From a virus, in IMG/VR virus record IMGVR_UViG_3300046002_001684, positions 1-29,938 of that record: a stretch of 29,938 bases of DNA, one strand, 5' to 3'. Positions within the stretch are counted from its first letter, which is position 1. Each line of letters opens with the position of its first letter. Both the position numbers and the translations under genes were made by a program. The notes under the pieces are model-generated. The model ran no database searches. It saw only the letters and a program-made list of their open reading frames with translations, and was not told the origin of the DNA. Positions 2,130 to 4,350 of the stretch are shown in pieces.

Positions 2130-2614
2130 TACTTACAGAACCAGTTTACAACGTGTTAAACTACAAAAAGAATTTTGATTTCATTTTTTTACAAATGTTA
2201 AAAAACAACAATCAAGAAGATGCTTATGATGCTGCGCTTGATTTAGTTCGGGAATACGCACCTAATTTCAAACATTACAAAGACTTTGATTCATATCGGG
2301 TTGTTTTGGCCAATAGTCAAGATAGGGGGCCGGTAGTAAGCAATTACAAACCAAATCTTGATATTCCTATGGATGTGATTGATGCTATTTGCAAGGGAAT
2401 AGATGAACTATTCCATAAACACTTAAAAAGGGTGAAAGTGCGCAAAATGGCTTATGATGCCTGCGTGAAAGAAATCAATATTTACTTCCCACACTACAAG
2501 CCACATAAAAACTATCAAAGCTATAAGGCAAGCGAAAGCATCAGGCACAAGAACAAATCAATTGAAAACAAAAAACGTGGCGTTAAAAAAGTAAATGTGG
2601 CGAAATTGCCATAA
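2126..2614 (+). CDS. unknown protein following terL
   Basis: A 162-residue protein with no recognised domain. It starts in a 4-base overlap with the terL stop, so it belongs to the packaging operon. The N-terminal two thirds are mixed helical and acidic. The C-terminal third (from about residue 105) is rich in Lys, His and Tyr and ends in a strongly basic tail, suggesting nucleic-acid contact. Its position could fit an accessory packaging or head role, but nothing in the sequence proves this. Confidence 0.75.
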   Translation: MILTEPVYNVLNYKKNFDFIFLQMLKNNNQEDAYDAALDLVREYAPNFKHYKDFDSYRVVLANSQDRGPVVSNYKPNLDIPMDVIDAICKGIDELFHKHLKRVKVRKMAYDACVKEINIYFPHYKPHKNYQSYKASESIRHKNKSIENKKRGVKKVNVAKLP

Positions 2615-2663
2615 TTAAGAATTATTCTATTTTTTAAAATGGTCGAATTTGACCACTTTAGAA

Positions 2664-2671
2664 TATATTTG
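2664..2671 (+). promoter_or_regulatory. Bacteroidota -7 element TATATTTG
   Basis: Matches TAnnTTTG, the -7 consensus of Bacteroidota promoters. A TTTG lies at 2648-2651, closer (12-base gap) than the usual -33 spacing. The element is part of a 20-base repeat shared with 2939-2958, in which only one base differs. It lies 68 bases upstream of the small gene at 2739. The leader between them can fold GCTAAAA (2687-2693) against TTTTAGC (2708-2714). Confidence 0.5.
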
Positions 2672-2738
2672 TATTAATAACTGTCAGCTAAAAGACGTTT
2701 TAATGTTTTTTAGCGCAAGTTATGGGGAATTTTAAAAA

Positions 2739-2930
2739 ATGAAACAGAAAAAAATTGAACACATTAGCCACGATTTAAACGTGGATGTAATTTTAAAATG
2801 CCTTTGGTCTATTAGAGAAAATGACCAATTCTATTTCAATTCATACGGCAAGGAAATGATTGAGAATTGCATCAATCAAAGGCTTCAAAAGAAACTTGAA
2901 GAAATAAAAAAATGCGAACATTTATCGTAA
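2739..2930 (+). CDS. small unknown protein between packaging and head genes
   Basis: Encodes 63 residues, acidic at the N-terminal half and Lys/Glu-rich at the end. It has no domain I recognise. It starts at ATG after an A-rich stretch and appears to be transcribed from the promoter-like element at 2664. The gap on each side is over 100 bases and carries regulatory-looking sequence, so this gene is probably an independent unit inserted between terL and the portal gene. Confidence 0.6.
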   Translation: MKQKKIEHISHDLNVDVILKCLWSIRENDQFYFNSYGKEMIENCINQRLQKKLEEIKKCEHLS

Positions 2931-2935
2931 TTAAC

Positions 2936-2943
2936 TAAATTTG
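2936..2943 (+). promoter_or_regulatory. Bacteroidota -7 element TAAATTTG ahead of the putative RNA
   Basis: Matches TAnnTTTG immediately after the stop of the 63-residue gene. It is followed by TATTAATAA and TGTCA exactly as at 2664, making a repeated promoter-like block. I see no convincing TTG at 17-23 bases upstream, so strength and use are uncertain. A transcript would start near 2950 and end at the terminator at 3044-3081. Confidence 0.5.
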
Positions 2944-2949
2944 TATTAA

Positions 2950-3081
2950 TAAATGTCAAGGTGGCAGAAGGCTTATAGTGTGAGTTAAATCGTTAAGGTG
3001 TTTAATTCCTACTATAACAAGGTACTTGGAACATTTATTAATTAAAGGACTCGGGCTTGTAAACCTTACGAGTCCTTTTTT
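2950..3081 (+). ncRNA. candidate small non-coding RNA of about 130 nt
   Basis: A gene-free stretch bounded by a TAAATTTG promoter element and a strong intrinsic terminator, without an open frame of useful length. Predicted helices by eye: TTATAGT (2973-2979) with ACTATAA (3011-3017); nested AGTTAAA (2983-2989) with TTTAATT (3001-3007); and a small CAAG-GTA-CTTG hairpin (3018-3028). It could be a regulatory RNA, or simply a structured leader or trailer between packaging and head genes. It does not fold as a convincing tRNA. The 5' end is inferred. Confidence 0.45.
3044..3081 (+). terminator. intrinsic terminator before the portal gene
   Basis: AAAGGACTCG (3044-3053) pairs perfectly with CGAGTCCTTT (3069-3078) in a 10-bp stem with a 15-base loop, followed by a run of T to 3081. 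This would stop transcripts from the terminase side and from the putative RNA. The portal gene would then need read-through or its own promoter. Confidence 0.88.
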
Positions 3082-3132
3082 AGTTAAATAAATTACAATT
3101 TAACTATTTTTATTTATTCCATTTTTGCAAGG

Positions 3133-4350
3133 ATGAATATATTAGGCTTCGAGGTTAGGCGCATAAATCCATTCGTGCAAGAAAAAACCGGTTTCTTAAA
3201 TGCCAATTTTGGCGGAATGGTTGGGCGTACACCAGTAAGCGAAACAAGTGTATTTGGATTATCAGCATATTGGGCCGGTGTAAGAAGAATTTCTGAATCA
3301 GTTGCAATGTTGCCAGTTGATGTATTTAAAAAGGTCAATGGTACACGTTCAATGGTTGATCATCCGGTGGAATACCTACTTAATGCAGAAGCAAACTATC
3401 AAACCTGCGCATTTGATTTCACGCAAATATTAATCACATCAGCAATCAATCACGGCAATGGTTTAGCAATAATAGAACGTGACAGATTTGGCACACCAAC
3501 TGGTTTAGTAAACGTATCACGCGAGATTTGTGAACCGTTGAAATATGACGATGAGTTGTATTGGAAGGTTGAAGTAAAAGAAGCAGCCAACAAACAAGAA
3601 AGTTTGCTGGTAAAAGATAGGGACATAATTAATCTTAGGGGCTTTGGATCGGATCCCGTAATTGGAATAAGCGCAATACAAGCCCACAAACAAAACTTAG
3701 GACTTTCGATAGCTGCACAAGATTATGGGGCCGATTTTTATAATCGCGGAACGAGGATTGACGGCTATATAAGCTATTCCGGTGTATTAAAACCAGAGAC
3801 CAAAGATGCAATAAGTCAGCAATGGTCAAGTAATTATGGTGCAAACGGCACACGTGGTACGGCCATTTTAGATTCCGGCACCCAATACCATCGTTTAGGA
3901 TTACCGCCACAAGACGCGCAATTTATTGAAACACGTAAATTCCAAAAAAATGAAATAGCAACAATTCTGGGAATACCATCACACATGATAAATGAGATGG
4001 ATGGGGCAACCTTTTCAAACATTGAACACCAGAGCATTGAGTTTGTTACTTATGGTATTGGCTCATGGATTGAAAAAATAGAACAAGAATATAGACGTAA
4101 ATTATTAAAAGAAAGCGAAAAAAGAAATCATTATTTCAAACACAATGTTGATCGTTTACTTCGTACAGATGTAAAAACCAAAGGTGAGTATTATCGATTG
4201 ATGACTGACATCGGCGCTTACACAATTAATGACGTTCTTGAATTGGAAGATAGAAATTCAGTGGATAACGGAGATGAACGATATGTTCAAATCAACCGTA
4301 TACCAATAGAACAAATGGCCGAATATTATAAAAAAGACATACCAAAATGA
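3133..4350 (+). CDS. portal protein, HK97 family
   Basis: Forms the dodecameric ring at one capsid vertex through which DNA is packaged and to which terminase and connectors bind. At 405 residues it has the usual length for the HK97 (Phage_portal) family. It opens with the variable N-terminal segment, followed by the conserved stretch with SAYWAGVRRISESVAMLPVD around residues 38-57 and the family-typical IPSHMIN segment near residue 280. The start has an AAGG just ahead of it, one of few Shine-Dalgarno-like sequences here. It overlaps the protease gene by 4 bases, the classic portal-protease-capsid order. Confidence 0.94.
   Translation: MNILGFEVRRINPFVQEKTGFLNANFGGMVGRTPVSETSVFGLSAYWAGVRRISESVAMLPVDVFKKVNGTRSMVDHPVEYLLNAEANYQTCAFDFTQILITSAINHGNGLAIIERDRFGTPTGLVNVSREICEPLKYDDELYWKVEVKEAANKQESLLVKDRDIINLRGFGSDPVIGISAIQAHKQNLGLSIAAQDYGADFYNRGTRIDGYISYSGVLKPETKDAISQQWSSNYGANGTRGTAILDSGTQYHRLGLPPQDAQFIETRKFQKNEIATILGIPSHMINEMDGATFSNIEHQSIEFVTYGIGSWIEKIEQEYRRKLLKESEKRNHYFKHNVDRLLRTDVKTKGEYYRLMTDIGAYTINDVLELEDRNSVDNGDERYVQINRIPIEQMAEYYKKDIPK

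Follow-up and report, generated by a model that had tools for sequence, protein, structure and literature searches.

Genomic context of the element

The window analysed here comprises 29,938 nt, positions 1 to 29,938 of IMGVR_UViG_3300046002_001684, and derives from an uncultured bacterial virus. Its large terminase subunit gene terL (531-2129) and its portal gene (3133-4350) were both confirmed by PHROGs, and the portal is encoded in 52 IMG/VR loci. Between a terminase-linked gene of 162 aa and the portal gene lies a stretch (window 2615-3132) that we call the cargo slot and that is a variable cargo hotspot. Many relatives have an empty slot, reduced to a gap of 46-58 nt (49-58 nt in L008, L015, L020, L021, L026 and others); elsewhere it is filled by unrelated small genes, in L004 it holds a methyltransferase-like fragment, and in L003, L005, L013 and L052 it contains palindromes edged by TAAC/GTTA and similar in appearance to integron attC sites. 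The window thus carries, between the same two flanking genes, a unit that is absent in close relatives, as is typical of a moron or cargo slot. The sequence-only reading had assigned to this unit a role in insulating the head genes from the terminase genes; since the slot is empty or variable in relatives, and in L008, L015, L020 and L026 (gap 49-57 nt) also devoid of a terminator, such a role is unsupported.

The slot of the window opens with a promoter-like region (2640-2671) that is conserved in L003, L005 and L058 and that ends in the promoter-like box TATATTTG (2664-2671, plus strand), the surroundings of which are kept in the same three loci; this box is the first copy of a repeat shared with the box of the RNA described below. 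Upstream of TANNTTTG at the slot start lies an inverted repeat that reads TGGTCGAATTTGACCA in the window and TGGCGAATGTGCCA in L003, the loci differing there by paired changes. A separate plus-strand hairpin with an attC-like outline, TAACTG...AAGTTA (2675-2725, z -3.8), is located 5' of an ORF of 63 aa (2739-2930, plus strand); in L004, an attC-like hairpin directly adjoins the RNA element. The 63-aa ORF has no Pfam or PHROGs match and is related, at 77% identity, to the N-terminal half of a protein of 139 aa encoded in an unrelated phage region (L077, 2001-2420). At the other end of the slot (window 3118-3135), and likewise in relatives, the portal start is immediately preceded by a conserved motif, TTTTTGCAAGG-ATG or TTTTTGCAATA-GTG, which is possibly a promoter for a leaderless transcript.

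Parts, fold and transcription of the element

The sequence-only reading had proposed a phage RNA of about 130 nt at 2936-3081, and all features it described were found in place. No ORF of at least 50 aa occurs between 2930 and 3114, the nested helices 2973-2979/3011-3017 and 2983-2989/3001-3007 are both present, and the terminator consists of a stem at 3053-3075, with 10 pairs scored, followed by TTTTTT. What had been overlooked is an outer closing helix, P1 (2945-3042, plus strand), in which 2945-2956 pairs with 3031-3042 over 12 contiguous pairs in both the minimum free energy and the centroid fold; it is shorter in L004. The fold of 2944-3081 reaches -41.4 kcal/mol compared to -25.2 +/- 3.4 for shuffled sequences (z -4.74, attained by 0/200), with z -4.6 for the inner 45 nt on their own and z -4.3 for the element minus its terminator. 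The intrinsic terminator hairpin (3044-3081, plus strand, z -3.4), a G+C-rich stem with the U-run directly after it, marks the 3' end of the RNA, and in L004 its stem is retained with changed bases. Over 2955-3043 the element of L004 has three differences from that of the window; L004 lacks the 63-aa ORF and the TAAATTTG box. A discrete structured phage RNA is supported.

Upstream of the RNA body, TAAATTTG (2936-2943, plus strand) reads as a candidate -7 element of a Bacteroidota-type promoter, corresponding to TAnnTTTG, and on reading the sequence no -33 element (TTTG/TTG) was found at a distance of 17-23 nt upstream. By itself TANNTTTG occurs in the window at chance frequency, 53 times against 49.7 expected. 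The box gains weight because its 19-nt context, TTTGTATTAATAAxTGTCA, is present in two copies (at 2668 and 2940) and because the position of TANNTTTG recurs: it precedes the RNA body by 11 nt in the window, by 9 nt in L085 and by 8 nt in L087, against a background of approximately 1% per locus; these three loci represent two lineages. In L089 TANNTTTG stands 43 nt upstream, and it is absent upstream of the RNA in L086 and in L004, where the RNA and its terminator come straight behind the attC-like hairpin with no box between them. We infer transcription from the TAAATTTG box. The complete small transcription unit that had been proposed is at most plausible, the promoter being limited to a -7 element and L004, the nearest relative, having the RNA and the terminator without the box. 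In L085 (about 300-345) and L087 (reverse strand), perfect palindromes of 18 bp, ATAAACAAATTTGTTTAT and GTAAACAAATTTGTTTAC, overlap the box that precedes the tRNA-like gene; a paired change distinguishes the two, as would be expected of an operator.

Relatives of the element in tRNA-Leu-like genes

Exact copies of a 21-base piece of the hairpin were found in five further phage contigs (L085-L089), bringing the hairpin to seven IMG/VR contigs, of which L085 and L088 are near-identical. In context, the hairpin of these five lies inside the D-loop of tRNA-Leu-like genes whose tRNA body is complete in other respects, with the layout TCAGGTG-TG-GCG-GAATG-[hairpin]-CTTGGTCAGA-CGC-...-T-arm-CACCTGA. 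In its D-arm this layout agrees with ordinary tRNA-Leu of Bacteroidota (GCG-GAATTGGTAGA-CGC), the hairpin being inserted after GAAT. In BLASTN between the window and L085-L089 the match is limited, within the region, to about 2947-3024 (E 1e-13 to 1e-17). A covariance model (R2) for which only the tRNA-like genes of L085, L086, L087 and L089 were used, with the window left out, matched the window at 2955-3029 with 68.4 bits (E 1.6e-16) and L004 with 65.6 bits.

The same order of parts is seen in the window, where a tRNA-Leu-like 5' part (2955-2971, plus strand), supported by the D-arm order, the match to L003 and model R2, consists of GTCAAGG (acceptor 5' strand), TG, GCA (D-stem 5' strand) and GAAGG (D-loop start), as in the tRNA-Leu D-arm GCG-GAATTGGTAGA-CGC of a Bacteroidota genome. 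It thus holds the 5' acceptor strand and D-arm start of the tRNA-Leu type. There follow the conserved D-loop hairpin (2972-3018, plus strand), of which the inner part, TGTGAGTTAAATCGTTAAGGTGTTTAATTCCT, is the same in all seven phage loci, and GGTA (3021-3024, plus strand), which two alignments identify as a remnant of the D-loop GG motif, relatives having GGT(C)AGACGC. The window accordingly shows the feature by which we define the family, a conserved hairpin of 46-47 nt following TGGCRGAAKG. Past 3024 the window has neither the anticodon arm nor the T arm seen in the relatives. The T-arm and the 3' acceptor strand are present in L085, L086, L087 and L089 and absent in the window and L004, the only two loci with the truncated form, which lacks both the T and anticodon arms. 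The placement of the RNA in this family is well supported; its derivation from a tRNA-Leu-like gene with a conserved D-loop hairpin, one shared with other phages, had escaped the sequence-only reading.

The intact relatives are themselves recognized by neither ARAGORN nor Rfam. When the hairpin was left out and the flanks were joined by script, ARAGORN made a tRNA call for L087 and L089 but not for L085 and L086, the anticodon regions of which hold further extra sequence; the tRNA-like gene of L086 (about 155-335 of a phage contig of 99.6 kb) has a second extra hairpin in the anticodon region besides the one in the D-loop. The cargo slot of L003 contains an irregular tRNA-like gene (3050-3119; Rfam RF00005, 42 bits) with an anticodon loop of 6 nt, which together with its four preceding bases opens with AAATGTCAAGGTGGC, the first 15 bases of the window element. 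L081 (10392-10570) likewise has a phage tRNA-Leu-like gene that begins with this 5' end, GTCAAGGTGGCGGAATTGG; it is located behind two normal tRNAs and has a variable region of >60 nt. The terminator region of the window also has 9-10-mers in common with the anticodon regions of L085 (GCTTGTAAA) and L086 (ACGAGTCCTT), a hint, too short to support a claim, that the terminator may derive from the old anticodon arm.

Conservation and covariation of the hairpin

Covariation of the hairpin and D-stem was assessed on six sequences against a shuffle control (n=500). Standard pairs make up 99% and four pairs are changed on both sides, a count as high being reached in 1/500 shuffles, and sliding the pairing partners destroys the pairing. 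Among the double changes in the outer stem is a replacement of A-U by G-C that occurs both in the window and in L004. The relatives fold into tRNA-like bodies, and for the four complete tRNA-like genes the acceptor, T and hairpin stems together give five double-changed pairs (2/500 shuffles as high), with far lower scores for slid structures. As the sequences are few and related, these counts are support rather than proof. The compensatory changes which the sequence-only reading had suggested to look for are thus found in the outer hairpin stem, whereas covariation is absent from the inner stem, owing to its invariance: the inner stem-loop TGTGAGTTAAATCGTTAAGGTGTTTAATTCCT, about 31 bases, has no change across the seven loci. 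Since the 21-mer had itself been the search key, we also used a relaxed pattern that leaves 16-20 inner bases free, and recovered the same seven loci with zero inner variants. Around the element the contigs L085, L087 and L089 are only 75-81% identical, and L086 has only about 80 bp in common with the other loci at the DNA level. The core of the hairpin is intact in the window and L004 despite the loss of the T and anticodon arms.

Distribution outside the seven contigs

That the RNA belongs to no named RNA family, as had been supposed, was borne out by an Rfam search of the region, which returned zero matches at E up to 10, the tRNA family included; neither did ARAGORN make a call on the window element. 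The complete cloverleaf of a tRNA (RF00005), with T-arm and acceptor 3' strand, is not found in the window, and no GGTTCRANTCC-like sequence could be read 3' of the hairpin. BLASTN of 2600-3160 against 50,697 isolate phage records gave no relevant match. With the tRNA-like form of L089, the phage records gave weak matches, and among the matches listed none was to the hairpin, those listed covering bases 91-141 (anticodon/variable region and T-arm). The D-arm plus hairpin gave only chance matches in phages and 72,556 plasmids, and the exact hairpin 24-mer is absent from 84,980 bacterial and archaeal genomes. In genomes the relaxed pattern had 21 matches that, read singly, were not tRNA-like and were judged to be chance; the same judgement was made on the one 30-bit match (L117, without T-arm or tRNA context) of a covariance search in 395 genomes of the phylum of genome G001. 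Searches with the 162-aa and 63-aa proteins yielded no further copies of the element.

Three candidate roles for the hairpin were tried and set aside. The loop GTTAAGG contains U-UAA, yet stem and loop mismatch the one tRNA-Leu(UAA) arm tested, from a Chitinophaga genome with the anticodon loop CTTAAAA, so that mimicry of an anticodon arm by the inner loop is speculation. Mimicry of a CRISPR repeat, prompted by length and palindrome, was dropped since none of the 84,980 genomes contains the exact 24-mer; a diverged CRISPR repeat may still be mimicked. An antisense action on a phage gene was rejected, since the only site of the loop complement CACCTTAAC in the window is the element.

Proposed origin and function

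The interpretation that we favour, with about even chances of being right, is that 2945-3081 encodes a noncoding phage RNA of about 130 nt that arose from a tRNA-Leu-like gene and offers an invariant stem-loop to a partner, possibly as a decoy or mimic. The ancestor would have been a phage tRNA-Leu-like gene holding a hairpin of 46-47 nt in its D-loop; in the lineage of the window, the 3' half of the tRNA would have been lost in favour of a long closing helix and a terminator, with the hairpin kept. As the 3' half is gone in the window and L004 and the hairpin core is intact in both, the hairpin and not the tRNA looks to be the functional module, for which the tRNA body or the closing helix may serve as a stabilising scaffold. 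Lacking the anticodon and T arms in both loci, the RNA cannot be a tRNA. The invariance of the stem-loop (loop GUUAAG) suggests that it is recognized by a putative partner, either a protein or another RNA. The likeliest benefit to the phage would be interference with host tRNA-acting factors during infection. Such a decoy is plausible and is the guess that we prefer, in view of the tRNA origin of the family and of published work in which phage tRNAs counteract defences directed at tRNA (PMC10264068, PMC11555353).

A decaying tRNA-like pseudogene that happens to lie in the slot, the window copy being without a function of its own, is an unlikely explanation, though one that would fit the loss of the 3' half, the failure of any tRNA model to match, the turnover in the slot and the irregular state of the tRNA-like gene that L003 carries at this site (anticodon loop of 6 nt). 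Decay is difficult to reconcile with a hairpin core identical to that of distant relatives when everything beyond it is unalignable, with the compensatory change from A-U to G-C in the outer stem of the window and L004, or with the gain of a new closing helix and terminator (z -4.7).

The hairpin could alternatively be a selfish palindromic DNA element that enters phage tRNA genes and spacers and is conserved for reasons at the DNA level. We consider this improbable. Its constant position in the D-loop with a flanking tRNA-Leu D-arm, the single copy per record and the absence of the exact 24-mer from 84,980 bacterial and archaeal genomes all argue against it, as do the similar neighbour genes of L085-L089, L086 included, which suggest vertical descent rather than hopping. 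On the other hand, this palindrome of 46-47 nt does occur in phages that share little other DNA (about 80 bp in L086), and repair of quasi-palindromes is also able to yield paired changes.

Improbable to the same degree is that the element forms the structured 3' end of the mRNA of the upstream cassette, the hairpins stabilising and terminating the message. The arrangement in L004, with the RNA directly behind the end of a cassette and without a box of its own, agrees with this explanation, under which transcription there would be by read-through only. L004 keeps the RNA, however, although it has no 63-aa ORF, the tRNA-like genes with the hairpin in relatives have a box 8-9 nt upstream, and a terminator alone requires none of the conserved inner sequence.

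An intron or extra domain in the D-loop of a functional tRNA, either excised on maturation or tolerated thereafter, would explain why joining the flanks restores a tRNA call in L087 and L089, but it is very unlikely given the irregular anticodon arms, the lack of a call in L085 and L086 even when joined, and a window copy without anticodon or T arm. An integron attC site or cassette junction can be practically dismissed: neighbouring slots (L003, L005, L013, L052) do hold attC-like palindromes and attC clusters without integrase (CALINs) occur in phages, including a Polaribacter phage (PMC9892861), yet no RYYYAAC/GTTRRRY pair could be read in 2945-3045 around the palindrome at 2945-3042, and by homology the hairpin belongs in tRNA-like genes.

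Returning to a tRNA-derived RNA that displays a stem-loop, the seven loci appear to constitute a small, new phage RNA family with a tRNA body as scaffold. More tentatively, and less likely than not, they could represent a new class of phage regulatory or anti-defence RNAs in which a natural tRNA scaffold displays a sequence-invariant stem-loop from the D-loop and can later be shed, the hairpin RNA surviving with its own terminator. The usual view of tRNA-like genes in phages is that they help with codon usage or provide a resupply against tRNA nucleases; if our interpretation is true, a dispensable tRNA body with an invariant inserted hairpin would be a different phage use of tRNA scaffolds, in a family that would escape tRNA finders and Rfam. 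The hairpin, being a short defined sequence, would lend itself to tagging and to use as bait for its putative partner.

Comparison with known systems

With tRNA, and tRNA-Leu in particular (RF00005), the window element shares the 5' acceptor strand, the TG spacer, the D-stem start and the D-loop order GAA..GGTA, and L085-L089 share also the acceptor, D and T stems with GGTTCRAATCC; the family differs in the hairpin of 46-47 nt within the D-loop, and the window in lacking the T-arm and anticodon arm. Rickettsia palindromic elements likewise consist of a short palindrome within genes, whereas the present hairpin occupies one conserved position in a tRNA D-loop, in one copy per record and only in phages. 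The CALINs found in phages (PMC9892861) resemble the slot of the relatives, with its attC-like palindromes and variable cassettes, and differ from the window element, which is without attC core boxes. As to anti-defence phage tRNAs (PMC10264068, PMC11555353), these are also phage-borne, tRNA-derived RNAs, possibly directed like ours against host tRNA nucleases, but they are ordinary tRNAs that resupply a function, which the window RNA cannot do since it cannot act as a tRNA. Finally, like phage morons, the element is an extra unit between conserved late genes that is absent in relatives and has its own terminator and a possible promoter; unlike them, its cargo is a noncoding RNA instead of a protein gene.
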